Positions 8,740-29,533 of a DNA stretch of 64,000 nucleotides are shown here, one piece after another. A program made the translations under genes and the position numbers. Numbering within the stretch: the stretch's first letter is position 1; each line of letters begins with the position of its first letter. The stretch spans positions 124,001 to 188,000 of the forward strand of contig NZ_JAWDKA010000004.1 in the NCBI RefSeq assembly GCF_032714615.1, written 5' to 3'. The notes beneath the pieces were generated by a model. The model made no database searches. It saw nothing but the letters and a program-made list of their open reading frames with translations, and was not told the origin of the DNA. This stretch comes from Methanorbis furvi (GTDB lineage Archaea; Halobacteriota; Methanomicrobia; Methanomicrobiales; Methanocorpusculaceae).

Positions 8740-8943
8740 TACGTGAAGATATGGACGGGAAAACAGACTTGTTTTGAGGTAAGATTAAGCTGCCGAAGTA
8801 ACGAAAGAGGTGGAAACATCAGCAGCCATTTTATCGATGTCTATGGTTACGACATCTTTGGGGTGAGAAGATTTTCCGGATGAGACTGATTGGTATTCTA
8901 CAGCATCATCCTTCAGTAATCTATCTCCAGAACTCCCCTATAA

Positions 8944-9146
8944 TTAATACTTATTAATTTCGATATCGTGGGTTTTGTATTGGAGTTAATCTGTTATTTC
9001 GTATGAAAAACTGCCACATATTTATACCACATTCATTAAACAGAGCATATTCGACGGAATTTGTTATCTTCACTAATTCGGACTTTTAGGAAAACATATC
9101 ATTAATATCCATACCGCATAGTTTTTTATATTTTAATAAGTATTAA
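8944..9146. promoter_or_regulatory. AT-rich intergenic region with 14-bp inverted repeat
   Basis: The gap 8740-9213 has no gene. It contains TTAATACTTATTAA at 8944-8957 and its exact reverse complement TTAATAAGTATTAA at 9133-9146. The second copy lies upstream of the SPFH operon, close to where its promoter should be. The repeats may bind a regulator or anchor a DNA loop of about 190 bases. Confidence 0.4.
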
Positions 9147-9213
9147 TAAAACAACCAATACTTGTATGGTATTTGGAATAAAATCATATTTCTCCTGCCC
9201 TATGGGAGATACG

Positions 9214-9285
9214 ATGAAAATTTGTCCGGAAAGGGCGCCTGATTTCCAAAACCCTGACGGTGGTGATCTCAATGTATCAATTTAA
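9214..9285 (+). CDS. possible 23-aa leader peptide of the SPFH operon
   Basis: An ATG at 9214, preceded by GGGAGATACG (a good ribosome binding site), opens a frame of 23 codons (MKICPERAPDFQNPDGGDLN, then VSI) that ends at 9285, 14 bases inside the next gene, whose ATG is at 9272. The overlap would couple translation of the two. It could be a leader peptide or a chance frame. Confidence 0.35.
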   Translation: MKICPERAPDFQNPDGGDLNVSI

Positions 9286-9613
9286 TGATGATACAAGATT
9301 CCATCTGGGATGGCTGTCAGCTCTTCTTCTTTTAGGTGTGGCTATAATTCTGGGCTATCTTGGGCTTGCCCCCATTCTTTGCCTGGGTATATTTTCCCTT
9401 GGACTTGGACTTGTATTGATCGTTCTCGCCTTTTTTGTCGGTACTGTTGAGATGGTGCTGGCGGGTTTTGGCGTCCTGATTGCTGTAATTGGAGCAACAG
9501 CTATTATTACCACATTTACTCATGCAGCACTTATTCTGGTTCTTACCGGTATTCTCATTGTTGCCGCAATTGTGGGAATCATCAGTCTGCTTGTTATCAG
9601 GAGGCCAACGTAA
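9272..9613 (+). CDS. four-helix membrane protein, SPFH operon
   Basis: A hydrophobic protein of 113 residues (from the ATG at 9272, preceded by GGTGATCTCA; a GTG at 9260 is a weaker start). A short charged N-terminus (MYQFNDDTRFH) is followed by four transmembrane helices made almost wholly of Leu, Ile, Val, Gly and Ala, ending in RRPT. No family is recognised. It is the first long gene of an operon that continues to 14742. Its position suggests it is the membrane anchor or pore-like partner of the SPFH protein; this is inference. Confidence 0.65.
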   Translation: MYQFNDDTRFHLGWLSALLLLGVAIILGYLGLAPILCLGIFSLGLGLVLIVLAFFVGTVEMVLAGFGVLIAVIGATAIITTFTHAALILVLTGILIVAAIVGIISLLVIRRPT

Positions 9614-9634
9614 AACATATTTTGAGGTGAATAT

Positions 9635-10180
9635 ATGGTTGATTTACGAGAAAAAATTGAAGAGGAACGCGGACTGCACAAAAAAATTCAGCTCGCCTTC
9701 CCTGGCTATCGTGGTTATCGTCTGGAAGAAGATGCCCGCGCATCTGATCTCGAACTGAGAAAACAACTCGGAAAAAAGATTGAATCAGATGTTATCGCCG
9801 TTCTGCAGGAAACTCAGGCAGCATTACTCGCTGACGGGGAGTTTATGTCCGCTGGAGAGGTAAAAGATGCAGTTGATCCGGTCAGACGAATACAAATTGG
9901 AGTAACCCGACTTCAGACCGGCGGATTCAGTTTCGGTGTTATGAACAATTTCTACATGACACCTGAACGAATCAATGCCCTGTATGATTACGACTGGTCG
10001 ATGATTGAAACTGTCATTCATCTGGAAGAAACCGCACAAAACATCTCGAGTGACGCTGCAGCTGGTGATCTTTCCCGACTGAAGAGTTACCTCAAAGAGA
10101 TCCGTGAAGAAGTACAGCTTTTTGAGAAAACTTCCCGGGAACGAATGGATACCATTCAGGGAAAAAAGGTGTTTGAGTGA
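9635..10180 (+). CDS. uncharacterised helical protein, SPFH operon
   Basis: A 181-residue charged, mostly helical protein. It has heptad-like stretches at the start (MVDLREKIEEERGLHKKIQL) and end (LKSYLKEIREEVQLFEKTSR) separated by a more compact region (VTRLQTGGFSFGVMNNFYMT). The ribosome binding site GAGGTGAATAT precedes the ATG, and the gap to each neighbour is under 25 bases. No cysteine or membrane helix is present. It may assemble as a coiled-coil scaffold with the SPFH protein. The overall length and helix content recall PspA/ESCRT-III-like partners, but the sequence gives no proof. Confidence 0.6.
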   Translation: MVDLREKIEEERGLHKKIQLAFPGYRGYRLEEDARASDLELRKQLGKKIESDVIAVLQETQAALLADGEFMSAGEVKDAVDPVRRIQIGVTRLQTGGFSFGVMNNFYMTPERINALYDYDWSMIETVIHLEETAQNISSDAAAGDLSRLKSYLKEIREEVQLFEKTSRERMDTIQGKKVFE

Positions 10181-10197
10181 CGCAGGAGAGGTGAAGT

Positions 10198-11310
10198 ATG
10201 GGATTATTTGGATTGAGTAAAAATGCCTATGTGTGGGATGACATTGACAAACCGGTTACGGTCGTAAAAAAAGTCAGGCCAAGAAACGGGAAGTTCAATA
10301 TCAATGATGATATCATCATTGGCCCGACTGAAGCAGCGATCATCGTCTATAATGGTGCAGTCAAGCAGGTCTGTACCGGACAGCAACGAATTACCCTAAA
10401 CAGTGACAACGTCGGTATTATCAAAGCAATCACCGGAGCAGTCAGTCAGATTGATGTGTACTGGGTCAATACCCAGCGGTTTATGGACAAGTACGGCGGT
10501 TCAGCCCAGATCAGAGATCCGACGATCGATGATGACGACGCCTTTGTCGATATTCATGTACACTACTCCTACTCGTTCAAGGTAAATTCCGAGGAGATCT
10601 CGCTACAGCTCTTATTTGATGCATTTGGTTTCAATGCAGACATTTCCAAAAGAGAAATAGTGGAGCGGCTGAACAAAGACACCGAACTACAGATCGGCAC
10701 GGTTCTTGCAACGGAACTGGAGCGGGTGGATGAAAACGGGAAACGGGTAATGTCAGTCTTTTCCATCAAACGGGAAAGTATCAAACTGGCAAACGCATTC
10801 TCCGCCGCATCGGACAAATCCTGTATGGAACGGTATGGAATCCACATTGTTGACATCAACAACTTCGAAGCCAAACCTGACAAAGAGTACGAGGAGATGA
10901 ACCGTGCCAACGTTACTGCCGGCTCCTTTGCGTCACGCGGCAGCAACCAGTATGCCAAAGCCAATGTCGGCGGTATTCAGATGCAGCAGATGCTCAATCA
11001 GAACAAAGTTCTGGAGGGAATGGCCGCAGGAGCCGCAACAGGAAACAGTGGAAGTGGGGGAATTGATGCTATGGGAACCATGATGGCAATGTCCATGATG
11101 AACCAGATGCAGCAGCAACAGCAGATGCAGTCAGGTTTCCCAATGGGGCAACCTACGGAGAAGTGCAGCAATTGCGGCGGAAACCTGCTTTTCGGAGCAA
11201 AATTCTGCCCGACATGTGGTACATCAACTGTTCGAACATGTTCTTCCTGCAGTAAGGAAGTTCCTGCAAATGTGGCATTCTGCCCGTACTGCGGGGAAAA
11301 ATTAACTTAA
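10198..11310 (+). CDS. SPFH (band-7/YdjI-like) protein with two C-terminal zinc ribbons
   Basis: A 370-residue protein. Residues ~35-235 match the SPFH domain of the YdjI/virion-core type (DDIIIGPTEAAIIVYNGAVK, later VDIHVHYSYSFKV), a fold that forms membrane-associated oligomers. A low-complexity Met/Gln/Gly linker (MMNQMQQQQQMQSGFPMGQ) leads to two zinc ribbons: CSNCGG...FCPTCG and CSSCSK...FCPYCG, a double zinc-ribbon module. No transmembrane helix is seen, so membrane contact probably comes through partners. The start has a strong GGAGAGGTGAAG site. It is the central member of the operon 9272-14742. Bacterial relatives occur with stress or phage-shock-like genes; the role in archaea is unknown. 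Confidence 0.8.
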   Translation: MGLFGLSKNAYVWDDIDKPVTVVKKVRPRNGKFNINDDIIIGPTEAAIIVYNGAVKQVCTGQQRITLNSDNVGIIKAITGAVSQIDVYWVNTQRFMDKYGGSAQIRDPTIDDDDAFVDIHVHYSYSFKVNSEEISLQLLFDAFGFNADISKREIVERLNKDTELQIGTVLATELERVDENGKRVMSVFSIKRESIKLANAFSAASDKSCMERYGIHIVDINNFEAKPDKEYEEMNRANVTAGSFASRGSNQYAKANVGGIQMQQMLNQNKVLEGMAAGAATGNSGSGGIDAMGTMMAMSMMNQMQQQQQMQSGFPMGQPTEKCSNCGGNLLFGAKFCPTCGTSTVRTCSSCSKEVPANVAFCPYCGEKLT

Positions 11311-11324
11311 GGAGGTAAAATACA

Positions 11325-11621
11325 ATGCCAATTATTAAATCAGATTCATTCTCCGGAGGTTCATCCGGAAGCAGCCCATCAGGAGGATATCGGCATAAAA
11401 GTCCGTTTCTGGCCCTCATTCTGTCGTTCTTTATCGTCGGTCTTGGTCAGGTGTACAATGGACAGATTCTCAAAGGAATCGGATATTTTATTACCGGGGT
11501 TATTCTCGCTCTCCTGGGTCTGGTGACCCTCGGACTCTTGTTCTTCCTCCCGCTGATCTGGTGGATCTGGAACATGTATGATGCATATCACACAGCTGTT
11601 AGAATCAACGGTGGATACTAA
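11325..11621 (+). CDS. TM2-like small membrane protein
   Basis: A 98-residue protein. A Gly/Ser-rich N-terminus (FSGGSSGSSPSGGYRHKSPF) is followed by two transmembrane helices linked by a short turn, with GLGQVYNGQILKGIGYFITG, which matches the TM2 domain pattern (G-x-GxxYxGxxxxG). The second hairpin ends WIWNMYDAYHTAVRINGGY. TM2 proteins sit in the membrane and often accompany zinc-ribbon or stress proteins. A perfect GGAGGT site lies 8 bases before the ATG and 15 bases after the SPFH stop. Confidence 0.75.
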   Translation: MPIIKSDSFSGGSSGSSPSGGYRHKSPFLALILSFFIVGLGQVYNGQILKGIGYFITGVILALLGLVTLGLLFFLPLIWWIWNMYDAYHTAVRINGGY

Positions 11622-11663
11622 GCGAAAAGATGTTCCTGTGAGTAATAAACGGAGACAAAAAAC

Positions 11664-12548
11664 ATGCAAATAGATTGTCCCAAGTGCAGAAACACCTTCG
11701 AGTTTACCCATGCAGCAGATCAGTTTACCTGTCCTTACTGCGGAACGATCACCAGTCTGAACAAAGCAGATACCCTGTATCTGTACACCATGCCTTTTAC
11801 GATCACCGATCAGCGGGCAAATGATGTGTTCAAAAAATGGGCAGCATCATCGGATAAAATTCATGATCTTCTGGTAAAATGTACCGACAAACAATGGAAC
11901 AAGTATTATCTTCCTGTCGGAAAAATTGTTCGTATTCTGGATGGAATGGAACAGGTATCCATTTTTTCTCTCAGTGAGAACAATCCCGTAAATCAGGATC
12001 TTCACATTGATACAATCCCTCCCGGAGAACTTCTCTTCTACGAAGGAGGAATTCTGGATGCTCAGGCCATTATGCCGGATAGAGACATGAATGTTCTGCT
12101 GACCGAGTACATGGGCAAACCCAAAGAACAGGCTGTGATATTTGTACCGGTATATCATCTTCAGTACAAATACGGTGGAACTCCCTACTCTCTGCTTATC
12201 AACGGAGTGACAGGTACAGTTTATACCGATGCCTTTCCTAAAGCCACGGACAATATTTACCGTGAGTGTACAAAAAAATATCTCTATATAGGGATAGTAT
12301 GCGGAGTTATCGCAGGGATTATAGGTTTATTCCAGAATACTATCTTTAGTTATGTGAATGGTTGGATGAATATGTCATACCTTCTGGGCGTGAATCCTTG
12401 GTTTGCACTGCGAAACATTGTATCCTTGATTATATTCTTAGGATCCATCATTGGTGTGATCTACTTCTCCCATCGTGATGGTTCGGTTCTTCTTGATGAG
12501 TTGGAAAAGAATCGTTCCTATGAGGAAACCACGGAGACTGAAGCATGA
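11664..12548 (+). CDS. zinc-ribbon membrane protein A of the SPFH operon
   Basis: A 294-residue protein. The N-terminal zinc ribbon is CPKCRNTFEF...FTCPYCGT (residues ~5-32). A soluble alpha/beta middle of ~170 residues contains FVPVYHLQYKYGGTPYSLLI and NGVTGTVYTDAFP, which recur in the next gene as YLPYVVVRYKYHGREYSVVL and NGRTGNVDAG. Two or three membrane helices lie near 205-275, followed by a charged tail. The two genes are therefore paralogues. The shared Y-(K/H)-YxGxxYxxxxNGxTG core looks like a conserved ligand- or protein-binding domain. It overlaps the next gene by four bases (ATGA). Confidence 0.65.
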   Translation: MQIDCPKCRNTFEFTHAADQFTCPYCGTITSLNKADTLYLYTMPFTITDQRANDVFKKWAASSDKIHDLLVKCTDKQWNKYYLPVGKIVRILDGMEQVSIFSLSENNPVNQDLHIDTIPPGELLFYEGGILDAQAIMPDRDMNVLLTEYMGKPKEQAVIFVPVYHLQYKYGGTPYSLLINGVTGTVYTDAFPKATDNIYRECTKKYLYIGIVCGVIAGIIGLFQNTIFSYVNGWMNMSYLLGVNPWFALRNIVSLIIFLGSIIGVIYFSHRDGSVLLDELEKNRSYEETTETEA

Positions 12549-13630
12549 ATGCCGATGTAGTCCGGTCAGCATCAACCGATATGAACAGCAACGTTGAAGG
12601 ATATTTCTGTACAAACTGCGGTTCGAAACTGGTACTGAACGAGAAAGAGCCTGTTGTGTATTGTGAAAGCTGTCACAAAGCCTATGTTTCTACGAATTTT
12701 TATGGATTAGAAAAGTATGTTGCCAGAGCAAAAATTCTGGAGAAAGATGCATGGGATAGAGTAAACCAATGGTTCAAAGAAGGAGGAGCACGGGATCTGG
12801 CAACCTCTGCGGAACTTGCCAGTGTCAAAACCATGTATCTCCCGTTTTGGAAAACCAAGACAGAAACACGGACAGTTGTCTGCGGATACAATGTGTACAA
12901 AGACAATAAAGGAAACCAGAGATACGAGTTCCTTAAACGCATGTACAAAAAGAACTATGTATGGGACGATATTGCCTGTGATGGTTCTGAATACGGAGTC
13001 CAGACCTATGACATATCAGTCCCTGTAGTCCCATTGTTTGAGATTCAGGAACAAATTTCCCTTGTACCGGTAACCATATCCGAATCTGATGCAAAGAAGG
13101 CCAGTACAGATGCAGTTATTGATACCGCACAGGATGATGCAGGTGCCGGGATAAGCAACGTAACGTTTCTCAGAATATTTCCCAAGTTAAAGGACTTCAA
13201 ACTGATATACCTGCCGTATGTTGTTGTCCGTTACAAGTATCACGGACGTGAGTACTCGGTTGTCCTTAATGGTCGTACCGGAAATGTTGATGCCGGTACA
13301 AAACCAGGGGACAAAGGACAACAGGCCACAAACTTCAGTATCTGTTTCGGTATTGGAAGTACACTGATCGGTGCAGGAATTGGTATCCTCGCAGCTGAAC
13401 TGATTACGATGATATGGTGGTATTCGATGTTGGATGACTATTTATTATTCCTTCTTATGTCCGATAGCCAACTTCTCCTTGGGTTTATCCTAACAGCGGT
13501 AATGGCAGTTATTCTGATATGGATTGGTCGCAGCCTTCACAAGAAGAGTCTCCACATCCTCCAGTACGGATCAGAGATCACCACCGGCAATCAGAAAACC
13601 GAATCAAAAACATCCAGTGAGGTGAGATAA
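12545..13630 (+). CDS. zinc-ribbon membrane protein B of the SPFH operon (paralogue of A)
   Basis: A 361-residue protein. The zinc ribbon near residues 22-45 reads FCTNCGSKLVLN...VYCESCHKAYVS. The middle domain shows LPFWKTKTETRTVVCGYN and the paralogue core YKYHGREYSVVLNGRTGN. Two transmembrane helices follow (roughly 265-290 and 305-335). The fold resembles protein A but with about 65 more residues before the core. Its stop is directly followed by the start of the next gene, so the operon is tightly packed. No enzyme motif is visible. A sensor or adaptor role at the membrane is plausible. Confidence 0.65.
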   Translation: MNADVVRSASTDMNSNVEGYFCTNCGSKLVLNEKEPVVYCESCHKAYVSTNFYGLEKYVARAKILEKDAWDRVNQWFKEGGARDLATSAELASVKTMYLPFWKTKTETRTVVCGYNVYKDNKGNQRYEFLKRMYKKNYVWDDIACDGSEYGVQTYDISVPVVPLFEIQEQISLVPVTISESDAKKASTDAVIDTAQDDAGAGISNVTFLRIFPKLKDFKLIYLPYVVVRYKYHGREYSVVLNGRTGNVDAGTKPGDKGQQATNFSICFGIGSTLIGAGIGILAAELITMIWWYSMLDDYLLFLLMSDSQLLLGFILTAVMAVILIWIGRSLHKKSLHILQYGSEITTGNQKTESKTSSEVR

Positions 13631-14245
13631 ATGGCATTAAAAGCACTTTCCTGCCCGGAATGCGGACATGAGATAACAGGGGAAACAGGTTTTGGTGTGG
13701 TACTGGAGTGTCCCAACAATCATTATGTAGGCGTCTCCCGCGATACACATGACGTGTACTCTGTCCCAACCCAGCTGGTAAAACCCAGTGGGCTTGATCC
13801 CAAGAAGGGAAGACTGATATTTCTTCCATTCTGGGGATTTAACGTATTCATCAATGTACGTGATCGGAAGATTCAGGGAGGCGGACTTTGGAGACTGTTT
13901 TCCGGACAGAAACTCCTAAGCGGCGATTGTGCGATGTACGTCTGTGCCGCACAACTCCCGGATGACGACGTGGATGAACTCAGCAAACACTACTCTCTCA
14001 ACAATCCTCCGGGCTCCTCCAACCTGGAGGATAGTTATCGGGATGATTTTGAAAAACTTCCTGTCTTTATCGATGAGAACACCGCATTCCAGCATGCCGA
14101 GTTCATTTTCCTCAAAAATGAGTTCGACGTCTCAGGAACATTGCAGTGGATAGACTACACCTTTGAATTCAAAGAGTTCGGTCTTGTTTATCTGCCGTTC
14201 TACATGGACACCAAGCGAAAAGACACCTACCATCAGATCATCTAA
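13631..14245 (+). CDS. zinc-ribbon protein C of the SPFH operon
   Basis: A 204-residue soluble protein. It starts with CPECGHEITG (one CxxC); the partner positions read ECPNNHYVG, where a second Cys and a His could complete a zinc site. The rest shares motifs with A and B: RLIFLPFWGFNVFINVRDR, and near the end FGLVYLPFYMDTKRKDTYHQ. It looks like a membrane-less member of the same family. The strong site GAGGTGAGATAA precedes the ATG. Function unknown. Confidence 0.6.
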   Translation: MALKALSCPECGHEITGETGFGVVLECPNNHYVGVSRDTHDVYSVPTQLVKPSGLDPKKGRLIFLPFWGFNVFINVRDRKIQGGGLWRLFSGQKLLSGDCAMYVCAAQLPDDDVDELSKHYSLNNPPGSSNLEDSYRDDFEKLPVFIDENTAFQHAEFIFLKNEFDVSGTLQWIDYTFEFKEFGLVYLPFYMDTKRKDTYHQII

Positions 14246-14262
14246 AAGGGTTATACATTATT

Positions 14263-14742
14263 ATGCAGATCGATGGAAAAAGCGTTGCTGTTGCCGCAAC
14301 ATGTATCCTTCTCGGACTTTGTTGCGGTGTTCTCCTCACCCTCGTCCTTGTGCCTTGGGGTGCGGAAAATCATGCAACCTTCGATTTTTTGGAACAGAAA
14401 AGCACTCTTGAACCTGTGATAGGAACATGGTTTGGTTCCACCTCTTTTGCCGGAATTTTTACTCTTCAATCAACCCTCGTTTTTTATGATGATCAGTCCG
14501 GCAATGTGGTGTATGAACTCAGTTCTCCTTTGATATCTGTACAGAAAACCGGTTTTGACTTCACTTGGGAAAAAGCGGATGAACAAACTTACACTGCAAA
14601 AAATTCGGTTTTTGTCATGCCGTACTCCCTTTCGGACGGAAAACATACACTGAAGACCATCCTCAATCCTTCAATCATCGGAATGTCAGATCTGGATGTT
14701 CTTTCCATTGATCTCCGATATGTAAAACAGAATGCCGGATAG
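14263..14742 (+). CDS. membrane-anchored exported protein, SPFH operon
   Basis: A 159-residue protein with an N-terminal anchor helix (VAVAATCILLGLCCGVLLTL) after a short MQIDGKS leader, then ~120 residues with alternating strands (STLVFYDDQSGNVVYELSSP; FTWEKADEQTYTAKNSVFVM). This looks like an outward-facing beta-rich domain tethered to the membrane. It is the last clear member of the operon, 17 bases after gene C. No family is recognised. Confidence 0.55.
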   Translation: MQIDGKSVAVAATCILLGLCCGVLLTLVLVPWGAENHATFDFLEQKSTLEPVIGTWFGSTSFAGIFTLQSTLVFYDDQSGNVVYELSSPLISVQKTGFDFTWEKADEQTYTAKNSVFVMPYSLSDGKHTLKTILNPSIIGMSDLDVLSIDLRYVKQNAG

Positions 14743-14766: not shown

Positions 14767-15342
14767 ATGTCGAAACCAATGGGCACTCCCGAAGAAGATC
14801 TCAGGATTCTTCGGGAGATACTCGTTCCTGAGATGATTCTTGAACCGGACACCGGCACCGACGGCAAGCCCCGTCTGAAACTCACCGATCCTGACAACCC
14901 GAACACCTGTGTCACGATCACGGGCCTGCTTCCGCATACGATCGCCGTAAAACCCGATGTTGCATCATGTACAGGCAGGTGTTTTCAAAGCAGCAGGGGT
15001 GAGGCAAGACGTTCGGACTACATTCTTATCTGTGCCGGAGAGAAGGAGAGATGGGTGGTCTTCATTGAACTGAAGGGGTCCATGAAGTATGCGTCCCTGC
15101 ATGGGATTGCAAGCCAGCTGCTTGGTTCACGCTGTTTTTTTGAGTATGTACGGTTTACCGGCAGGGTATTTTGGGAGTGTCCGGATTTTCTGAGTGCGTA
15201 TGCGGAGCGGTATGTGGTGTTTCCCCGTTCGTCAAGGAAAGGGGATGGGGGTATTGATGCGGGGTGTATGGAGGCTCTCGGGGTGATTGAGGTACGGAGG
15301 ATAGGGGAGAGGATGGGGGTGCGGTTTCGGAGGATGGTGTGA
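14767..15342 (+). CDS. PD-(D/E)XK nuclease-like protein
   Basis: A 191-residue protein. The central part has the pattern of a PD-(D/E)XK nuclease core: Asp84 in RRSDYILIC, then Glu101 and Lys103 in VVFIELKGSMK, separated by a turn as expected for strands 2 and 3. A Cys-containing CTGRCF segment lies just before it. The gene follows the SPFH operon by 24 bases but lacks a clear ribosome binding site, and its 3' half becomes G-rich with many GGGG runs, unlike its neighbours. It is convergent with the XPD-like helicase. It may be an independent nuclease or a degraded accessory gene. Confidence 0.5.
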   Translation: MSKPMGTPEEDLRILREILVPEMILEPDTGTDGKPRLKLTDPDNPNTCVTITGLLPHTIAVKPDVASCTGRCFQSSRGEARRSDYILICAGEKERWVVFIELKGSMKYASLHGIASQLLGSRCFFEYVRFTGRVFWECPDFLSAYAERYVVFPRSSRKGDGGIDAGCMEALGVIEVRRIGERMGVRFRRMV

Positions 15343-15348
15343 AAAGGG

Positions 15349-17385
15349 TCAGTGTTTATTATTTACATTCCATTCTTCGATCTTATTTGGCAGTGAATCT
15401 ACCGTACAGCTCATTATCTCATTTTGAATCCATTTCGGAAGATTTTTCTTAATATATCTCTGTAAATATCGTCCATCTCCTAGTATGAGCAGCCCGCGAT
15501 CATTTTCAGTTCTGAGAACACGGCCGAGTGCCTGAAGTGCTTTGTTCACTGCTGGTAGATTATAAGCGATAAAACTACCATCCTCAATCCCATATTTTAT
15601 AGAATATTGATCATTTATGAATATTTGACTTGCTGAATATACGGACAGTGGAAGCCCAATGACGAGTGCAGCCACAAGCAATTCACCCTTGAAATCCAAT
15701 CCTTCACTCCATTTACCCCCGCAGACACCAAAAAGAATTCCAGATTTACCACGTTCTGGAAGTTTCATAAACTTCTTAATCTGTCGGTCCGCTTCATCTG
15801 AATCTCGAGGTTCCTGAAACAGGATTTTTTTATTTATTGATGATCCCAACTTCCTTTTATAATAATTCATCTGATCATAGGACGTAAAATATACAGCCAC
15901 ATTGCCAGGATATTCTATCAATATTCGAATATACTTCAGGATGTTCTCAACATTTTCCGGTTCAGATCGTCGATTCAGCTTTGAACTAATATCAGAGCCA
16001 CAGAGAATCAACCTATTTTGTGGAGGAAAAATATTTGGTACTGTAAAAGACTTAACGTCCAGATCATTAAAATAATATTTTTTATAAAGATGAATTGGCG
16101 ACAGAGTACCGCTTGCGAGAACTACCGATTGAAATTTCTGAACAAAATTTTGTATAAACTCTCCCGGATTGATGTACTTAATATGAAGAGAGGGTTTATC
16201 CTCGTTCTTTGATAGATAAAACAGGTATTCTCTGTTGTTTTGAATCTGGGCAAGTTTCGAAACGAAAGAATGTATCGTGTCAAGTACCGAATTTTCATCA
16301 TCAAGCCCAATGATGAGATCAGAGATATTTTGAAGAAGAACTCCAGGATTTTTCCAGTCAGAATTCGTGACTAAATTCTGCAAAATGCTTTCAGGATCAA
16401 GTATCATTTCCTGTTCGGTTATTGGTACGGGCGTTTTTAAGAGAGCACGTAATCGATTTAGAAGATGCATTGTAGCAGAAAGATCGAATTTATCTTTGTT
16501 TACACCTTTACGCAGCATCTCCATTTCTTCCTCTGCTTTATTTATAGTTATCTCTGAAAGAGTATTTTTTAGGATGGACTGTACTGTTTCCCCAAGATTA
16601 TGTGCTTCGTCCAGCAACAGCAGAACATGATCCGGCTCGGTGATAAGATTTTTGAATAGGGCATTTTGTATGTCAGTTCGGAAAAGATAGTGATAATTGA
16701 CAATAAGAACATCTGCCTTTGGAGCAGCTTGCCACAGGACAGCATGAGGACAAAAACTACCGGAAAATTCCATGATGTCCACAGGATCGACGCGATGGGT
16801 AAGTAATTCATTACATTTGCCTATCATTGATTGTACGGGTTTTTTTGTGCTATATTCATCAGACCAGTCCTCTGTATCTGCTGAATAGTCGTAACTGTTA
16901 AGATAATATTGACAAATGGTAGGAGATTCCGAATCCTCTCTCTTTAAAATTTCTTTGAGGAGAGTACTTTTAAGGGGATTTATACCCGGATCCTGATCAA
17001 GTATCTGATTCAGAAGAGTAAGAGTATGTCGTCGAAGTTTTTGACATTTTTTGTAAATGTTTCCAGATGCTGTGGTAGCATAGGGACACAGTTTTGATTT
17101 ACCAATGAGATAACTATAGGTAAGATCACTCTGCTTGTTTTGACGAATTTGTTCCAGTTCATTAATGAATATTTTAAGTTGTGAATTTGTACGAACTGCC
17201 ACAATAATTTTATTCCTATTACGCTCAGCTAAAAATGGAATAACAATACTGGATTTTCCAGTGCCTGTAGGTGCATCAACCATCAGAATACCCTGTTCTT
17301 GTATCGTTTCAGATACGACTCTAAGCATCTCTTCCTGATGAGGACGATAGGATTCATAGGGAAAATAGTCTGATATTGCAGGCAT
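15349..17385 (-). CDS. XPD/DinG-type (Rad3-related) helicase
   Basis: A 678-residue superfamily 2 helicase. Walker A is APTGTGKSS (residues ~38-46); the DEAH box is LLLLDEAHNLGE (~258-261); the C-terminal domain has FGVCGGKWSEGLDFKGELL and the arginine-finger motif QALGRVLRTENDRG. Between motifs I and II lie Cys100, Cys114, Cys158, Cys191 and Cys212; four of these could bind the 4Fe-4S cluster typical of XPD and DinG. It unwinds DNA 5' to 3'. It is 76 bases downstream of the OLD gene on the same strand and shares its AT-rich composition, so the two probably act together. Host XPD orthologues are usually not next to an OLD gene. Confidence 0.85.
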   Translation of the reverse strand: MPAISDYFPYESYRPHQEEMLRVVSETIQEQGILMVDAPTGTGKSSIVIPFLAERNRNKIIVAVRTNSQLKIFINELEQIRQNKQSDLTYSYLIGKSKLCPYATTASGNIYKKCQKLRRHTLTLLNQILDQDPGINPLKSTLLKEILKREDSESPTICQYYLNSYDYSADTEDWSDEYSTKKPVQSMIGKCNELLTHRVDPVDIMEFSGSFCPHAVLWQAAPKADVLIVNYHYLFRTDIQNALFKNLITEPDHVLLLLDEAHNLGETVQSILKNTLSEITINKAEEEMEMLRKGVNKDKFDLSATMHLLNRLRALLKTPVPITEQEMILDPESILQNLVTNSDWKNPGVLLQNISDLIIGLDDENSVLDTIHSFVSKLAQIQNNREYLFYLSKNEDKPSLHIKYINPGEFIQNFVQKFQSVVLASGTLSPIHLYKKYYFNDLDVKSFTVPNIFPPQNRLILCGSDISSKLNRRSEPENVENILKYIRILIEYPGNVAVYFTSYDQMNYYKRKLGSSINKKILFQEPRDSDEADRQIKKFMKLPERGKSGILFGVCGGKWSEGLDFKGELLVAALVIGLPLSVYSASQIFINDQYSIKYGIEDGSFIAYNLPAVNKALQALGRVLRTENDRGLLILGDGRYLQRYIKKNLPKWIQNEIMSCTVDSLPNKIEEWNVNNKH

Positions 17386-17461
17386 TGAATGATAGTTATT
17401 CTTTCAAGAATATATACTGATAACCACGCACAGTGAAAGTGCATTTTGTTTGAAAAATATT

Positions 17462-19585
17462 TTATGTTGGATTTTTACAATCATCTATTGTCTGCTTTAT
17501 GACCAATGCATATTCAGTGACATCAAGATAGTCAGCAATAGTATTTCCCTCTTCAAATAGATTATCATAGACTGCATCCGCAATTCCTATTGCTTTTATC
17601 TCTTTTCCTTTTCCTGTAAGAATAGCCAATCCTGCGGGTGTATAATAATCTTCAAGTTCTCCTTTTCTTAGGATGTAGATATGTTCTTGCTGAAATAATG
17701 CATCCAGAATATCTTCTAGAGAGTCACTAAATTTATCCTCACCAAGTGATCGAAGAAGACTCAGTGACATTTTCTGTTTTAGGTGCTTTTGTTTGAGGTA
17801 CTCCCAAATATTTTTGAGGTCATCGCCTACCTCACCGGTAAGGCATGCTGTTTCTATAGCATCGCAGAAGGCTTTTGCATCAAGACTCTGGGAATTCGAT
17901 ACAGATCTTTTGAGAGAACCACAATTTTGAGGTAATTTGCTAGAAATTGTTGATATTTTTGAAGACAATGCGTTGAGAAGATCACTCCTATCGTACACTT
18001 TGCTTTCCGTACTCGGTAAATATAATGTTGCATCATCGGATTTCAGAGATAATAACTCTTTTCCACCATGTAAATAGTCGAAATCTGCAATTACATAATA
18101 TCTTATCCCGAGTTGAGTTAGTAACCAGATATATACAGAGAAATTGCTTTTCCCACCCACATTAATCACAGATATATTATATTTATCCAATGGATTCTCA
18201 GGATATCCACTTTCTTTTTCCAGATCCGCAATTAGTGGTAAAAGATACTCCTCGCCGCCCTCGACAAGAATTACAGCATCAGCAAAGAATAATTCTGAGG
18301 ATTTAGAATTTATGATCTTCTCCAACTTTTGGTTATATTGTTTGTAATCACCTTCATTAGGAACACCAACAATGATTGATTCTCCCGTTTTTGGATCTTT
18401 TCTAACTACTTGGATATTCTCAACAGGAGTATTTTTCAAAAATTCAGTAGAATGTGTGGTGAGAATTATCTGATTATCAGGTTTGCCTCTATCATCGCCA
18501 TGGATAAAATCATCAAGAGAAGATGACAAAGAACGTCTTGCGTGAGGATGCAAATAACATTCAGGCTCCTCGATTGCCAACAATGATCCTGATTTGTGGA
18601 TCATTTTACAGTAATGGGCAAATAATGAGATGATAACTGTACTCTGTGTACCAGTACCCTTATGATCTAATGTTGTTTCAAATCCACAATCATCAACGTA
18701 AATAGAGGCTGTTCTGTACATTTCATTAGTATGCTTTGTCATCAACTGAAAATTGACGGATGTGGCATTGATAGTATTACAGACCTGGGAGGTAATCCCA
18801 TTAATACACGGAGAGAAAATTTCATTTGCTTTTTCTCTGACACTGTGATTCAGTTCTTCTAATTCATGCCGAAGAGTATCATCGCTGGAATACCAACGCT
18901 CTTTTAACATTTTAGAGTACCAGGAATAATTATTTATTTTCAAATTAGAATAGGGACTCCGCACAGCCGGAATAATCACGCTGGTAATTAGAGCGTCTCT
19001 CAGATATTTATTAACACCATAGATAAAATCATAGGAATTATCTTTTTTGATAACAATTCCATAGTTGTTTAAAAATTCATCCTCATTATGTTGAACATGT
19101 AAAAAGATAGAGATAGAATCAGCTGAATATAATAGAGGTGAAATGAGATCAGCTTTTTTCCAATTTACAGATATACCAGGATATTCTCTTCCATCATAAT
19201 AGAGATATCTCTCATCAATATCTCCAGAATCATTTATAATCGGCACATCAACAAATGTGTAAAAAACTATATTTCGAGTATATTTCAATAACTCACCCTC
19301 GTTAAATGCGGATGCCCGTACTTCCCCATGTTTCAACTCTACGACGACAGTGAACGAGTCAGCATACTGAATGTTCCCAGTGTCATCTTTTTCCGCATGA
19401 AAATCATCTTTTTGAAAGGTCAGATATGTGGGATATTTTTCTCCAATGACCAAATCAATTGCCTTAATTATATTACTCTTACCAGAGTTGTTTTTTCCTA
19501 CAATAACATTCTTACCTTCATGAAAATTCAAATCCATTGATTTAATACTGCGAAAATTCCTGATCTGCACTTTGTTAATATACAT
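17462..19585 (-). CDS. OLD-family ATP-dependent nuclease (ABC ATPase + TOPRIM)
   Basis: A 707-residue protein. N-terminal ABC ATPase: Walker A GKNNSGKS (residues ~30-37), then AIEEPECYLHPHARRSLSSS (signature end plus Walker B) and TTHSTEFL. C-terminal TOPRIM: the invariant Glu in VILVEGGEEYLL (~440) and the DxD-like YYVIADFDYLHGG (~501). OLD proteins cut DNA, usually under nucleotide control, and GajA of the Gabija system belongs to this family. The ATG at 19585 is chosen because GGAG lies 6 bases before it. Its partner here is an XPD/DinG helicase, not the UvrD-like GajB. Low GC suggests recent transfer. The gap 19586-19944 upstream has a TATA-like AAAAAGTATATG and no gene. Confidence 0.87.
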   Translation of the reverse strand: MYINKVQIRNFRSIKSMDLNFHEGKNVIVGKNNSGKSNIIKAIDLVIGEKYPTYLTFQKDDFHAEKDDTGNIQYADSFTVVVELKHGEVRASAFNEGELLKYTRNIVFYTFVDVPIINDSGDIDERYLYYDGREYPGISVNWKKADLISPLLYSADSISIFLHVQHNEDEFLNNYGIVIKKDNSYDFIYGVNKYLRDALITSVIIPAVRSPYSNLKINNYSWYSKMLKERWYSSDDTLRHELEELNHSVREKANEIFSPCINGITSQVCNTINATSVNFQLMTKHTNEMYRTASIYVDDCGFETTLDHKGTGTQSTVIISLFAHYCKMIHKSGSLLAIEEPECYLHPHARRSLSSSLDDFIHGDDRGKPDNQIILTTHSTEFLKNTPVENIQVVRKDPKTGESIIVGVPNEGDYKQYNQKLEKIINSKSSELFFADAVILVEGGEEYLLPLIADLEKESGYPENPLDKYNISVINVGGKSNFSVYIWLLTQLGIRYYVIADFDYLHGGKELLSLKSDDATLYLPSTESKVYDRSDLLNALSSKISTISSKLPQNCGSLKRSVSNSQSLDAKAFCDAIETACLTGEVGDDLKNIWEYLKQKHLKQKMSLSLLRSLGEDKFSDSLEDILDALFQQEHIYILRKGELEDYYTPAGLAILTGKGKEIKAIGIADAVYDNLFEEGNTIADYLDVTEYALVIKQTIDDCKNPT

Positions 19586-19944
19586 ACCAATCTCCAAAAT
19601 TACTTATTAATCCCACGACAATCACACTGACATTCAGTTTGACATATACTTTTTTTATAATATGAGTATTAGATGGCAAATGGGATTAAAGATTGTACTT
19701 TGAAAAGATACATACTAAATGGAGTGAATCGGGTGATATGATCTATTGCACGTAAAAAATGAAATTATACATGTAATTTACGGTATACCAAAAGCACTCA
19801 ATCTCGTTACAAGGTTCCGCAGCCCACCAAATCATATATTCAACCACTAGCCTCATCTTCCTTCAAGCAATCACATAATACATATCATTTTTGCGTCACA
19901 CCACTGCAAAATACATATGAAAAAATGTGATGAGAGTACATAAA

Positions 19945-20067
19945 ATGGCACATATCCCATTAAATCTCAGAATACTGAGAAAGGAAAACAACAGTCTGCT
20001 TGAACTTCCGCTCCCGCTCGTGTGGAAAATGAAGGATTTCGCAGAAGAACTCCTCACGCCGCCTTAA
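19945..20067 (+). CDS. possible 40-aa protein
   Basis: A short frame, MAHIPLNLRILRKENNSLLE then LPLPLVWKMKDFAEELLTPP, ending 14 bases inside the 3' end of the convergent symporter gene. It has a balanced composition and a plausible helix at the end. There is no good ribosome binding site before the ATG. It might be a real small protein or a gene remnant. Confidence 0.35.
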   Translation: MAHIPLNLRILRKENNSLLELPLPLVWKMKDFAEELLTPP

Positions 20068-21664: not shown

Positions 21665-21771
21665 GGATAATCGGTTGTGTAAGTGTACTGTTTGTTGTGG
21701 GGGGATAAATAGGGGGGGAGTTGTGAGAAAGGCTGGTCTGTTTATATGGGAGAATTGCCTATATTGTGGTA

Positions 21772-23268
21772 ATGATCACCGGGGTTTTGAGGAATAAGAT
21801 TGACGGGTTGTGGGAAGTTTTTTGGACAGGAGGTCTGACAAATCCTCTGGATGTGATTGAGCAGATTACGTATCTGATGTTTGTTCACGATCTGGATGAT
21901 ATGGATAATGAGCGATCGAAGGAGAGCGTGATGCTGGGGTTGTCGTACTCAAGCATTTTTGATCGGAAGGTGAGGATTTCAGAGGAGCTTTGTGATGCGA
22001 AGATTTTGAAGTGGTCGGTGTTTCGGGATTTTCCGGCAGCAAGAATGTATGAGGTGATGCAGTCCGGCGTTTTTCCGTTTATCAAATCTCTTGATTCGAA
22101 TCGTGATAGTGCGTACTCGCAGTATATGGGAGATGCGATTTTTAAGGTGCCGACTCCGGCGAAGTTAACGCAGATTGTGGATGCTCTGGATGGGATTTAT
22201 GGTTTGATGAAGCAGGGGGAGATGGATGATACGAAGGGGGATGTGTATGAGTATCTGCTTTCAAAGATTTCAACGTCGGGGACGAACGGGCAGTTTCGTA
22301 CACCGAGGCATATTATCCGGATGATGGTGGAGCTGATGGCACCAAAGCCGGGAGAGGTTATCTGTGATCCGGCGTGTGGGACTGCCGGGTTTTTGGTTTC
22401 TGTTGGAGAGTATTTGCGTGAACGATATCTTGAGGAGATCTTTTATGATAAGGATCAGCTGAGCCATTATCATGCGGGGATGTTTTTTGGGTATGATATG
22501 GATCGGACGATGCTGCGGATTGGGGCGATGAATATGATGACGCATGGTGTTCGAAGTCCGCATATTGAGTACCGGGATAGTTTGTCGGATCAGAATACGG
22601 ATGCGGGAAAGTTTTCTTTGATTCTGACGAATCCTCCGTTTAAGGGTAGTCTGGACTTTGATATTGTGTCGAGTGATCTTTTGCGGGTTGCGAAGACGAA
22701 GAAGACGGAGCTGTTGTTTCTGGTTTTGTTTTTGCGGATGCTGAAGGTTGGCGGACGGTGTGCGGTGATTGTGCCGGATGGTGTTTTGTTCGGGTCGTCT
22801 TCAGCACACAAGGCGGTGCGGAAAGAGTTGGTGGAGAACAACCGGCTGGAGGCGATAATTTCGATGCCATCCGGAGTGTTCAAGCCGTATGCGGGAGTTT
22901 CAACTGCGATTGTGATCTTTACGAAGACCGGACATGGTGGGACGGATAAGGTGTGGATGTATGATATGGAGGCAGACGGTTTTTCTCTGGATGATAAGAG
23001 ATCTCCTGTAGGGGATAATGATATTTCTGATATTGTGTCAAGGTTCCATAATCTGTCGGGAGAAGAGGGACGTGCGAGAACGGAGAAAAGTTTCTTTGTG
23101 CCAAAGGAGGAGATTGTTGGCAACGGCTATGATCTGTCGGTGAACAAGTATCGGGAGGTTGTGTATGAGGCTGAGGAGTTTCCGCCGACGATTGAGATTT
23201 TGGCGGAGATTCGGAGGATTGAGGGGGAAATTATGAAGGGGATTGATGAGCTGGAGAGGATGATCTGA
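21772..23268 (+). CDS. hsdM: type I restriction-modification methyltransferase subunit HsdM
   Basis: A ~498-residue N6-adenine methyltransferase. The N-terminal helical domain has NPLDVIEQITYLMFVHDLDD. The S-adenosylmethionine motif is DPACGTAGFLVSV (~residue 198), and the catalytic motif IV is LTNPPFKGS (~287). FRTPRHIIRMMVELM just before motif I is typical of HsdM. It modifies adenine at the site set by HsdS. A GTG at 21766 is an alternative start; a TATA-like GTTTATATGG lies ~30 bases upstream, so translation is probably leaderless. It opens the locus; the next gene starts at the base after its stop. Confidence 0.93.
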   Translation: MITGVLRNKIDGLWEVFWTGGLTNPLDVIEQITYLMFVHDLDDMDNERSKESVMLGLSYSSIFDRKVRISEELCDAKILKWSVFRDFPAARMYEVMQSGVFPFIKSLDSNRDSAYSQYMGDAIFKVPTPAKLTQIVDALDGIYGLMKQGEMDDTKGDVYEYLLSKISTSGTNGQFRTPRHIIRMMVELMAPKPGEVICDPACGTAGFLVSVGEYLRERYLEEIFYDKDQLSHYHAGMFFGYDMDRTMLRIGAMNMMTHGVRSPHIEYRDSLSDQNTDAGKFSLILTNPPFKGSLDFDIVSSDLLRVAKTKKTELLFLVLFLRMLKVGGRCAVIVPDGVLFGSSSAHKAVRKELVENNRLEAIISMPSGVFKPYAGVSTAIVIFTKTGHGGTDKVWMYDMEADGFSLDDKRSPVGDNDISDIVSRFHNLSGEEGRARTEKSFFVPKEEIVGNGYDLSVNKYREVVYEAEEFPPTIEILAEIRRIEGEIMKGIDELERMI

Positions 23269-24300
23269 ATGGAGGAGAAGAAATCCAATAGACACCTCAT
23301 ATCACAGGGAGATCAATATTTAGAATATTTAATGTCCCTAGAGTTCAAAAAAATATTTGATGACATTAACCAAAATATGTCAGAATTAAACTTAAATTTA
23401 CAGAAAATTCAATTTGGGTTCGGCGAATGTTTCAAGCTCTGGGAAAATCTAGTAAATGATGTATCCTATTCACTGACTAAATCACCATATGCATTTCATC
23501 ATCGTTTGGGAGAATTAAATTGGGTCCTTCCAACAAAAATATGTGATATCCCGCGCGACTTATTAGATTCAAATACATTATCTGATGACATCGTAACACT
23601 TTATATGAGAGATAATGCCAAAATATTCAATCGGGTTGTATCCGATATTCATGATAGATTAAGTACTGAATTTCAAAAAAAAGTATTTTCAGAATCAATA
23701 TTGACCTTTAATGCAAAATTATATCATTGTTGTTGTATATCACTATCTCCATTGATTGAGAGTTTATTGATTGATCAAAACAACGTAATGAAGACCAAGA
23801 TCAATAAAATGTTTCAAAACACGTATCAGAAAGTCTTTCACATCGAGATTGCCGACCCCAATGCGTTGCTCCTCCTCTCATTGAGAGGATTTATCGAGAA
23901 CTATTCCGCGCATAAAATGTTTTCAGAAGCTGAACCAGCCCACTTAAACAGACATTGGTTACTTCATGGGAGAATGACAGAACATCTTACGAAATATCAT
24001 TGTTTACAACTATTTGGGGCATTATGGGGTTTAACAGAATTAACCCATTATCTTGAAGATGAGGCGGGTACTGTGGATGATGTCGGAATAAATGTCGGAA
24101 TAAATGAGAGGCAGGTGCTTGAGGAAATTTCGAAGAATCCGTTGGCTACAGCAAAAAATATTTCGCAAAATGCAGGGATTACGGACAGACAGGTCGAACG
24201 TATTCTGTCACAGCTGAAGGAGAAGGGGGTTATCAGGAGAGTGGGGTCGAAGAAGACCGGGCATTGGGAGGTCGTTTTGGAAGGTGATTTGCATGAGTAG
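23269..24300 (+). CDS. HEPN-like protein with C-terminal winged helix, between hsdM and hsdS
   Basis: A 343-residue protein. Residues ~1-260 are helical and AT-rich in codon use (much poorer in GC than hsdM). Near residue 230 is NRHWLLHGRMTEHL, which contains R-H-x3-H, the Rx4H pattern of HEPN ribonucleases and of Abi-like proteins. The C-terminal ~65 residues are a winged helix (VLEEISKNPLATAKNISQNA, then GITDRQVERILSQLKEKGVI) of the type seen in RecG-like and Fic regulators. Its ATG is the base after the hsdM stop, so it is co-translated. HEPN RNases such as PrrC also sit inside hsd loci and act when restriction is blocked. The same role here is inferred. It lacks the NTPase domain of PrrC. 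Confidence 0.6.
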   Translation: MEEKKSNRHLISQGDQYLEYLMSLEFKKIFDDINQNMSELNLNLQKIQFGFGECFKLWENLVNDVSYSLTKSPYAFHHRLGELNWVLPTKICDIPRDLLDSNTLSDDIVTLYMRDNAKIFNRVVSDIHDRLSTEFQKKVFSESILTFNAKLYHCCCISLSPLIESLLIDQNNVMKTKINKMFQNTYQKVFHIEIADPNALLLLSLRGFIENYSAHKMFSEAEPAHLNRHWLLHGRMTEHLTKYHCLQLFGALWGLTELTHYLEDEAGTVDDVGINVGINERQVLEEISKNPLATAKNISQNAGITDRQVERILSQLKEKGVIRRVGSKKTGHWEVVLEGDLHE

Positions 24301-24392
24301 GTGTTTGGGGACATGCCGATGTCACTGTAAATATCACGGTAAATGTCACCATTGTCAGGATATGATTTGCCGCATCAGAGAGGTGGAATACA

Positions 24393-25589
24393 ATGAGTGA
24401 AATGGAGGGAGGTGATAGTATGAAAGGAATTGAGAGGCGGGAGAGGATGAATCTAACGGGAGGGAAAAAGGAAAAATGGCCGATGGTGCGACTGGGGGAT
24501 GTGTGTGACATTTTAGATAGCCAAAGAGTACCTGTTACCGAATCAAAAAGAGTAAAAGGTCCTTATCCATATTATGGAGCAAACGGGATTCAAGATTATA
24601 TCAATGACTATATCTTTGATGGTGAATTAGTCCTGCTTGCTGAAGATGGTGGATATTTTGGGGACAAAACGCGACCTATTGCCTATCGCGTGTCTGGGAA
24701 ATGTTGGGTAAATAATCATGCACATGTTCTTAGACCAAAACAAGACTCACATTTAGATATAGATTATCTCAATTATTCTCTGATGTATTATGATGTATCG
24801 AAATTAATTAATGGGACTACACGCTCAAAATTAAATCAAGCTGCAGTTAGAAGGATGACAATCCCTCTCCCTCCGCTTCCAGAGCAGCAGCGTATCGCGG
24901 CGGTCTTAGATCACATAAGTTCGCTGATAGCTCTGCGGAAGGCGCAGATAGAAAAGCTGGATATGCTGGTGAAAGCGAGGTTTGTGGAGATGTTCGGTGA
25001 CCCAGTGAAGAATGAGATGGGGTGGGATCTAAGAACAATTGGATCTTTTGCCAATGTTGTTACTGGAGCAACACCCAATAGAAACAATTCAAAATATTAT
25101 GAAAATGGAGTTGTCCCATGGATAAAAACAGGTGAAATTGAGGCTGGATACATTTATAATTCAGAGGAATATATTTCTGAAATGGCTCTAACAGATACTA
25201 ATTGTAAGCTACTGCCCGTAAATACGATTATGGTTGCAATGTATGGCCAAGGAAAAACCCGCGGACAAGTTGGCATTCTAAAAATTGAGGCGGCAACAAA
25301 CCAGGCGTGTGGAGCAATATTACCAAACAATAAATATTGTCCAGAATATCTTTATTATCATCTTAAGCTAGAATATAATCAATTAAGAGGATTAGGAAGA
25401 GGTTGCCAACAAACTAATTTAAATTTATCAATAGTAAAAAATTTTCCAATAATGGATGTACCTCTTGATATCCAACAAAGATTCATACCAGTTATAGAAA
25501 GAATAGAAAATGAAAAATGTATCTGTATCCAAGCATTGGAAAAACTAGAAATTATGAAAAAATCCCTCATGCAGGAGTTTTTTGGATGA
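24393..25589 (+). CDS. hsdS: type I restriction-modification specificity subunit HsdS
   Basis: A 398-residue protein with two target recognition domains. TRD1 starts WPMVRLGDVCDILDSQRVPV and ends in the conserved helix PLPPLPEQQRIAAVLDHISS; TRD2 starts GWDLRTIGSFANVVTGATPN and ends PLDIQQRFIPVIERIENEKC. The repeated central and C-terminal coiled coils set the spacing between the two half-sites. TRDs are more AT-rich than the linking helices, as expected for exchangeable domains. The ATG at 24393 has GAGAGGTGGAATACA before it; the first ~28 residues are not part of the domain. The DNA target cannot be read from the sequence. Confidence 0.92.
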   Translation: MSEMEGGDSMKGIERRERMNLTGGKKEKWPMVRLGDVCDILDSQRVPVTESKRVKGPYPYYGANGIQDYINDYIFDGELVLLAEDGGYFGDKTRPIAYRVSGKCWVNNHAHVLRPKQDSHLDIDYLNYSLMYYDVSKLINGTTRSKLNQAAVRRMTIPLPPLPEQQRIAAVLDHISSLIALRKAQIEKLDMLVKARFVEMFGDPVKNEMGWDLRTIGSFANVVTGATPNRNNSKYYENGVVPWIKTGEIEAGYIYNSEEYISEMALTDTNCKLLPVNTIMVAMYGQGKTRGQVGILKIEAATNQACGAILPNNKYCPEYLYYHLKLEYNQLRGLGRGCQQTNLNLSIVKNFPIMDVPLDIQQRFIPVIERIENEKCICIQALEKLEIMKKSLMQEFFG

Positions 25590-26659
25590 CAAAAGAGATA
25601 AAAACATATATCTGTAACTATCCCTACCATTCCAATATCCTGGCCTTTCAAAATTTTTGTAAGAGAAGAGTGTTTGGAATTGATCTACTTTGCGGCATTG
25701 GTCTCTCATTGGTTGGTGGGGCGATCCTACTCATATTCATCTCAGGTGTATTTTTCAGTTCTCAGTCCTTAGAACAGATATTACAGATAGCTCTTTCTCC
25801 CCCGATTCAATTTATCTCTCTACTTTGGCTTCTCTGTATGTTGTTTGTCATTATATGTGAGAAAAAGCACTGGGCGAATTTCAAATTTTATATAATATTT
25901 CCGCTCATCACTGCTCTCCTTGCCTCAATCTATTATCTATATCCGACACAAATTCTCTCTAACTGGTGGTACCTCAATATCTGTCTTTCTGGATTGTTGC
26001 TTTGTGGAGGGGTAATGTTCGCAATTGGACTTTTATCCTCTTATTCAGTTATCGAAGGACACCTGATTGCAAAAAAAATCCTGACCTCCCTCGACGAATA
26101 TCACTCACATCATCCTCACACTGGAATTCTCATCCCAATAAACATTCTACGTCTGGCAGATTTTTCCAGCATCGAAGGAATATCTCCATTGGCAGAAGGC
26201 TTTTTCAAATCAAAAAAAGAACCATACCGAATTTATTTCTGTTTCACTAAAAATGAAGTTGCACGTGTCATCGAAGATTCAAATGTCATTAATCTCTGGA
26301 TATTTGGTCATGGAAGTCGGGGCGGGGTTGATGTGAATGATGGACCATTTTACTATGACAGTCTGAAAAATTCAAACATCCCAAAAAAAGGATATATCCA
26401 CCAATATCATTGCAACTGCTGGATAGATGAACATGATAACACCTCTTTGGTCGATCTGCTTGTGGACGCAGATGATAAGAAGAAATCAACCGATACTGGA
26501 ACGCAAAACAGGATCCTGAAACTGTTTTGCAAAATACCTCTGTTATCATATATTGGAAATTATTTCCTGAACTCCAGAAATCCCTGGATCAACAAAAAAG
26601 GGATAAAACAGTATCTGCAAGAGCAGAAAAGTATTGAAAAATCCGAAATTGAATCATAA
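25586..26659 (+). CDS. membrane protein with caspase-like C-terminal domain
   Basis: A 357-residue protein starting at an ATG that overlaps the hsdS stop (ATGA). Four transmembrane helices fill residues ~30-165. The C-terminal half has a strand ending in a histidine, INLWIFGHGSRGG (His242), and about 34 residues later a strand ending in cysteine, YIHQYHCNCW (Cys276 or Cys278). A strand-GHG ... strand-C spacing is the signature of the caspase/gingipain/CHAT fold, so a membrane-tethered protease is a reasonable reading. The substrate is unknown. Four-base overlap with hsdS ties it to the restriction locus. An alternative is an inactive cell-surface protein, since the fold assignment rests on two motifs. 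Confidence 0.5.
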   Translation: MTKEIKTYICNYPYHSNILAFQNFCKRRVFGIDLLCGIGLSLVGGAILLIFISGVFFSSQSLEQILQIALSPPIQFISLLWLLCMLFVIICEKKHWANFKFYIIFPLITALLASIYYLYPTQILSNWWYLNICLSGLLLCGGVMFAIGLLSSYSVIEGHLIAKKILTSLDEYHSHHPHTGILIPINILRLADFSSIEGISPLAEGFFKSKKEPYRIYFCFTKNEVARVIEDSNVINLWIFGHGSRGGVDVNDGPFYYDSLKNSNIPKKGYIHQYHCNCWIDEHDNTSLVDLLVDADDKKKSTDTGTQNRILKLFCKIPLLSYIGNYFLNSRNPWINKKGIKQYLQEQKSIEKSEIES

Positions 26660-26669
26660 CATACATATC

Positions 26670-27626: not shown

Positions 27627-27695
27627 AAATATATTGATATCACAATGGAATAGCTTTCGAAAAATGAGGAACACACAATAGTTTCTCACCATTCT

Positions 27696-28211
27696 CTAAT
27701 ACAAACGCGTGATGGGGTATTGACTATACTTCCTGTTCCACTCATCAATAGACACAATATCAAACTCATCAATCAGAGATTTACTTCCCTCAGGCATACA
27801 GGGGAATTTTCGTGGCAGATATTTAATGATTTTATCACGAATCAACTTCCGCGACGTCCGATCTACTCTTGAAGTTGTTTCAAGAACATATAGATATATG
27901 TATTTTTTCTCCTTCCGGGAAACTAACGGGTATAACACACTGTGATAATACTTTCCCGCAATATCCTGACAGTGTTTATCTGTTTTGATCTTCTCGCCTT
28001 CAAATACTTCAGGACATCTCGCACCAGCATATGCTGAATTTTTTATTTCTACAAAAAAAATCTCCCCTTGTGTCTCCACAATAAAATCCACATCCTTTAA
28101 CAGGGAATTACTACAGATTCTGTAATGATCATGCAAACTCTTCGTAGCCCAGACAGCCCCAGAAAAATTGAAACGCACATTACTTTCTTCAAAAACCATA
28201 TCAGGACTCAT
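27696..28211 (-). CDS. PD-(D/E)XK nuclease-like partner of the ABC ATPase
   Basis: A 171-residue protein (start at the ATG overlapping the ATPase stop, with GGAG 9 bases before it). The nuclease core is LLKDVDFIVETQGEIFFVEI followed by KNS: Asp42, Glu55 and Lys57 in the (D)-x12-E-x-K pattern. It then has basic helices (RTSRKLIRDKIIKYLPRKFP). It is the second gene of a two-gene minus-strand operon with the ATPase, opposite in direction to the surrounding hsd genes. ATPase plus small nuclease pairs are common in phage defence. The exact family is not recognised. Confidence 0.65.
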   Translation of the reverse strand: MSPDMVFEESNVRFNFSGAVWATKSLHDHYRICSNSLLKDVDFIVETQGEIFFVEIKNSAYAGARCPEVFEGEKIKTDKHCQDIAGKYYHSVLYPLVSRKEKKYIYLYVLETTSRVDRTSRKLIRDKIIKYLPRKFPCMPEGSKSLIDEFDIVSIDEWNRKYSQYPITRLY

Positions 28212-29236: not shown

Positions 29237-29397
29237 CTTGTCAGGCTCTATATTAGTAATATGGGATGAAAACTATAATAACTATCGTCAGAAAATCTCC
29301 CCTATGCTACACATCTTTGAACCTCATGTGGGAAATCTCCTATGAGCATCCATCTAATCTCTGCATTCCTGATACATCCGAAAAACCGGCATATCCA

Positions 29398-29450: not shown

Positions 29451-29533
29451 TCCAACTCACAAAAAAATACCCGACCCATTCACCCAAAGCCTTTAACCTC
29501 TCTCACAACAAATACCAAAAACATCCAAAACAC

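Follow-up and report, generated by a model that had tools for sequence, protein, structure and literature searches.

Does an OLD-family nuclease gene that is followed by an XPD-type helicase gene represent a variant of Gabija, in which an OLD nuclease (GajA) is joined to a UvrD-like helicase (GajB)? The question is raised by two neighbouring genes in a 64,000-nt stretch of the Methanorbis furvi genome (referred to here as the window), which the original prediction read as a possible Gabija-like variant. The features concerned, in window coordinates, are as follows:

15341-19859, no strand assigned: exchangeable cassette of about 4.5 kb carrying the OLD and helicase genes, swapped in the sister genome G019
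15349-17385, minus strand: accessory XPD/Rad3-family Fe-S helicase, 678 aa, without a Shine-Dalgarno sequence
16750-17088, minus strand: cysteines C100, C114, C158 and C212 of the predicted helicase Fe-S cluster
17386-17461, minus strand: OLD-helicase intergenic gap, 76 nt, with a T-run after the OLD stop codon
17409-17416, minus strand: TATATATT, a sequence resembling an archaeal TATA box, at -31 to -24 relative to the helicase ATG
17462-19585, minus strand: OLD-family ATPase-TOPRIM nuclease, 707 aa, with an ATG start and a GGAG Shine-Dalgarno sequence at 19592-19595
18077-18262, minus strand: OLD TOPRIM core, from E442 (VEGGEE) to D501/D503 (DFD)
19475-19498, minus strand: OLD Walker A motif, GKNNSGKS, residues 30-37

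The OLD ORF is intact and, in addition to the Walker A and TOPRIM motifs listed above, contains KGTGTQS, LLAIEEPE (Walker B) and TTHS. In Pfam, it matches OLD-like_TOPRIM (E=1e-17) as well as AAA_15 (E=1e-38), and its core motifs are intact, in line with the earlier description of a gene with full ATPase and TOPRIM motifs. The helicase ORF is also intact, and matches Helicase_C_2 (5e-36), DEAD_2 (6e-14) and HBB in Pfam. In NCBIfam, it scores 262.8 bits with the rad3 model (TIGR00604) vs. a cut-off of 246.95, and far below the respective cut-offs for DinG, YoaA and Csf4; all four of its Fe-S cysteines are kept in common with the XPDs of the order. An XPD/DinG-type helicase gene with Fe-S cysteines had indeed been described after the OLD gene on the same strand, and the minus-strand order is OLD, then helicase. 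Both genes are AT-rich, again as described, with a GC content of 35.2% for OLD and 37.3% for the helicase vs. 54% and 52% in the genes on either side.

The identity of the helicase bears on a housekeeping reading of the locus, according to which the helicase is the host's XPD, or OLD and XPD together serve in repair or the cell cycle as a unit comparable to archaeal Cran1, a class 5 OLD protein that works in the cell cycle (PMC12796447). XPD is a family of repair helicases, which fits such a role. However, the same genome encodes a second XPD elsewhere (contig C2, 202933-204939; 53% GC). This copy is about 40% identical to the window helicase, has a nearly identical counterpart in the sister species G019 and is conserved throughout the order. 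In an XPD tree for which XPDs from archaeal families elsewhere in the phylum served as the root, the window helicase forms a clade (support 99/97) with a second-copy XPD of genome G006. This clade stands beside the order's 18 housekeeping XPDs, which are themselves grouped at 86/95, a support that leaves the exact branching of the two helicases relative to the housekeeping copies unsettled. The window helicase is found outside the vertically inherited XPD clade, the host orthologue being the separate copy (L062), and a contig scan with the helicase as query returned a single housekeeping XPD only. Judged from its sequence, the window helicase is thus an accessory, fast-evolving XPD paralogue distinct from the host orthologue, the outcome that the original prediction had named as one of its refutations having come out the other way. 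Furthermore, the OLD-XPD pair is absent from the other members of the genus and is replaced by a reverse transcriptase cassette in G019, as expected of an accessory rather than a core locus. The housekeeping reading therefore appears barely credible.

The accessory XPD of G006, which is another member of the genus, is encoded at 1316-3373 of locus L080 (contig C6), with a gene for a D12-class adenine methyltransferase downstream. At 57% GC, this locus is compositionally unlike the window helicase. No OLD gene was found beside it on its 5.2-kb contig, and none was matched in the genome at E<=1e-10, G006 being only 71% complete.

Is the OLD protein a GajA? Class 1 OLD proteins are encoded by isolated genes, while class 2 genes always occur in tandem with a gene for a UvrD-like helicase; class 1 proteins are also shorter than those of class 2 and lack their C-terminal helical bundle (PMC7049728). 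In a tree of 40 OLD proteins, the window OLD falls into one group (100/98) with five OLDs whose genes lack a UvrD gene directly downstream, namely those of Geobacillus pLDW-1, Thermus pTMY, Methanomethylovorans hollandica pMETHO01, G071 and G012. For the G071 protein, a same-strand gene for a UvrD-like protein of 1018 aa precedes OLD by about 760 nt, in an arrangement unlike that of gajA-gajB. Of the 13 UvrD-linked OLDs, 12 are found in a separate 13-row clade (99/94), and the 13th, from G221, is part of a small third group. In the PDB, the top match of the window OLD is the class 1 enzyme of Thermus scotoductus, TsOLD (6P74; 8e-21), the matches to class 2 TOPRIM fragments are at 4e-5 and 0.002, and those at E<=10 include no full-length GajA. 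Its class 1 traits further include the intact ABC ATPase and TOPRIM core motifs and the lack of a UvrD neighbour.

Two defining features of Gabija were tested: a nuclease of the GajA (class 2) lineage, from whose 99/94 clade the window OLD is excluded, and a UvrD/PcrA/Rep-like GajB in tandem, the place of which is taken here by an XPD/Rad3 protein. Since neither is present, the pair falls outside Gabija and, on the basis of these sequences, is not Gabija by descent. The PADLOC label GajA for the window OLD was rejected as too permissive.

The window OLD is long for class 1. Much of its extra sequence separates the TOPRIM DFD from a C-terminal KGELEDYY, and is common to its nearest relatives; the long C-terminal region is also present in the Geobacillus, M. 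hollandica, G071 and G012 proteins (658-696 aa). These OLDs make up a long subgroup, separate from the UvrD-linked clade, whose members come from archaea and from plasmids of both bacteria and archaea. The G012 gene, which comes from the same genus (contig C3, locus L069, 5316-9150), diverges from an AAA_21 ATPase gene that is followed by a DUF4276 gene. The latter two may be a PARIS-like or related pair, and a gene for a Fic protein is found downstream.

As had been proposed, we searched for further OLD-XPD/DinG pairs. OLD and XPD were each searched for in 394 genomes of one archaeal phylum (136 genera), with a capped number of first candidates per genome, and the neighbours of 49 archaeal OLD loci beyond the window were examined by means of local profile HMMs, which pick up DinG-type helicases less well than XPD; some of the flanks were just 1.5 kb. 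UvrD adjoins OLD at 22 of these 49 loci, which serves as a good positive control. XPD was found beside OLD at none of them, nor at the Geobacillus and Thermus plasmid OLD loci. On virus contigs, where no XPD was found, 15 OLD loci (several of them short) had neither an XPD nor a UvrD neighbour by local HMM. A tblastn search of phages and plasmids returned distant XPD/DinG matches alone (up to about 28% identity), with no overlap noticed with OLD records among the matches listed. The search, which covered phages, plasmids, virus contigs and one archaeal phylum but no bacterial chromosomes, thus yielded one pair, and the OLD-XPD pairing is a singleton among the 50 archaeal OLD loci inspected. 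Within this sample, the single occurrence is an outcome that the original prediction had named as a refutation.

The spacing of the two genes is also distinctive. The helicase reading frame opens 59 nt past the OLD stop codon, and its ATG is located 76 nt past it. By frame coordinates, 21 of the 22 pairs with UvrD have a UvrD frame that either overlaps OLD or opens no more than 4 nt from its stop codon. The position of TATATATT is one that a TATA box for a leaderless helicase mRNA could occupy in archaea; the chance of finding TATATA in this stretch is about 2%, or about 3% if TTTATA is also counted. A Shine-Dalgarno sequence is present for OLD and for most of the window's genes that are internal to operons, and absent for the helicase. 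Together, the gap, the box and the missing Shine-Dalgarno sequence are suggestive of independent transcription of the helicase.

These observations also weigh on the reading from which the analysis started, namely that OLD is a GajA whose UvrD-type GajB has been swapped for an XPD. The GajA models of PADLOC are in fact the top models for the window OLD (176.8 bits), followed by Old (172.8 bits). However, the UvrD-linked clade does not include the protein, which in the PDB matches a class 1 enzyme best and no full-length GajA at E<=10, and the spacing of its gene from that of the helicase is unlike that of UvrD pairs. We thus regard a Gabija variant as very improbable; with an OLD that belongs among partnerless OLDs, a pairing seen once and genes that are not coupled in the manner of gajA-gajB, the original assignment does not hold.

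The surroundings of the pair are those of a site where defence genes are exchanged. In G019, the closest relative, the flanks are 93-94% identical to those in the window, with sharp boundaries around the replaced segment (window 15341-19962 corresponds to 7847-13475 of locus L120, G019 contig C3, 146000-164000). At this site, G019 encodes a RT_UG5-nitrilase protein (1089 aa; 688 bits in PADLOC), which is a DRT-class defence reverse transcriptase and matches no Pfam family, together with a DEDDh exonuclease; alongside them, a gene for a PDC-S01 ATPase has been inserted. The left flank of the cassette in the window is a PDC-M47B-like gene (14767-15342), beside which no PDC-M47A partner was found. 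It is the last in a series of genes for zinc-ribbon and membrane proteins (9260-14742), largely conserved in G019. To the right are a symporter gene and, beyond it, a type I restriction system that encloses HEC-02 genes. This system (21766-32707) comprises HsdM, HsdS and HsdR, with both an opposite-strand HEC-02A/HEC-02B pair and two ORFs without an assigned family lying between HsdS and HsdR. Positions 26634-27626 encode a protein of 330 aa whose cysteines are zinc-ribbon-like and whose C-terminal part reads like a nucleotide-binding domain; it has no Pfam or PADLOC match.

Judged from its gene content, the site is an exchangeable defence hotspot, at which an OLD cassette and a defence reverse transcriptase cassette alternate in sister archaeal genomes. 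The locus accordingly behaves as defence cargo, in line with the original expectation, being swapped for the G019 cassette and having defence genes in its flanks. Its location in such a hotspot favours an antiviral function of the cassette.

Joint exchange is also the main argument for a functional OLD-XPD pair, since both genes are swapped as one segment. They could form a true two-gene defence module, Gabija-like in its working and assembled independently of Gabija, in which the 5'-3' Fe-S helicase would supply or sense unwound DNA for OLD. The genes are adjacent, intact and of similar composition, and jointly fill the cassette; being its sole genes, on one strand and with similar codon usage, they may have been acquired together. 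Moreover, helicase-nuclease pairs are common in defence, as in Hachiman (PMC12278908) and Gabija (PMC10781630). Similar AT content and codon usage were considered as a sign of a unit and set aside as unspecific, since the codon usage of the pair matches other, unrelated AT-rich cargo equally well (HsdS, the G019 reverse transcriptase and the G012 OLD). Against such a module stand the single occurrence of the pairing, the fact that relatives of OLD and of the helicase each occur without the other, and the gap with its separate TATA-like box. On balance, we consider the two-gene module unlikely, though still deserving of attention. Were it true, the nuclease-helicase partnership would have at least two origins among OLD proteins; cooperation of OLD and XPD would amount to convergent nuclease-helicase coupling around OLD enzymes, and to the recruitment into immunity of an XPD repair helicase, here an archaeal paralogue. 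Of the original idea of a system made distinct by its helicase swap, the adjacency of OLD with an XPD other than the host's own is real, the descent from Gabija is not supported, and no recurrence was found in the sample searched.

The explanation that we favour, and hold to be probable, is that OLD acts alone, and that the accessory XPD is a co-resident on one defence cassette that is not Gabija by descent. The AT-rich 4.5-kb segment would then be an exchangeable antiviral cassette in a Methanomicrobiales hotspot. From it, a long class 1-like OLD would act independently of the helicase as an ATPase-gated TOPRIM nuclease against invading DNA, the most likely activity by analogy with the P2 and Ts OLD enzymes (PMC7049728), and the 5'-3' Fe-S helicase would most likely be made from its own promoter. 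Counting against a lone OLD are its C-terminal region, which at 707 aa takes the protein beyond typical class 1, and the fact that the swapped segment holds these two genes alone, on one strand and similar in codon usage.

Four known systems invite comparison. Gabija, which forms a 4:4 nuclease-helicase complex (PMC10781630), likewise consists of an OLD gene and then a DNA helicase gene on the same strand, in a defence region. It differs in the clade of its OLD, in its SF1A UvrD-like GajB, replaced here by an SF2 XPD (5'-3', Fe-S), and in its overlapping or abutting genes, vs. a 76-nt gap in a pair seen once. Type IV-A CRISPR DinG/Csf4 shares the SF2 XPD/DinG superfamily with the window helicase, which has a PADLOC typeIV_DinG match of 315 bits. 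This label is too permissive, since the NCBIfam csf4 model gives 57.8 bits vs. the 400 required, and no type IV cas genes were matched among the neighbouring ORFs tested. With archaeal XPD/Rad3, the helicase shares all helicase motifs, the four Fe-S cysteines and about 35-41% full-length identity to the order's XPDs, but it is an extra paralogue on a long branch, AT-rich and without a conserved position. Finally, class 1 OLD proteins (P2 Old and TsOLD, 6P74) resemble the window OLD in their ABC ATPase and TOPRIM domains, in having no UvrD partner, as in its partnerless group, and in providing its best PDB match, whereas the window OLD is about 180 aa longer than TsOLD (707 vs. 525-528 aa) and is followed by an XPD gene.
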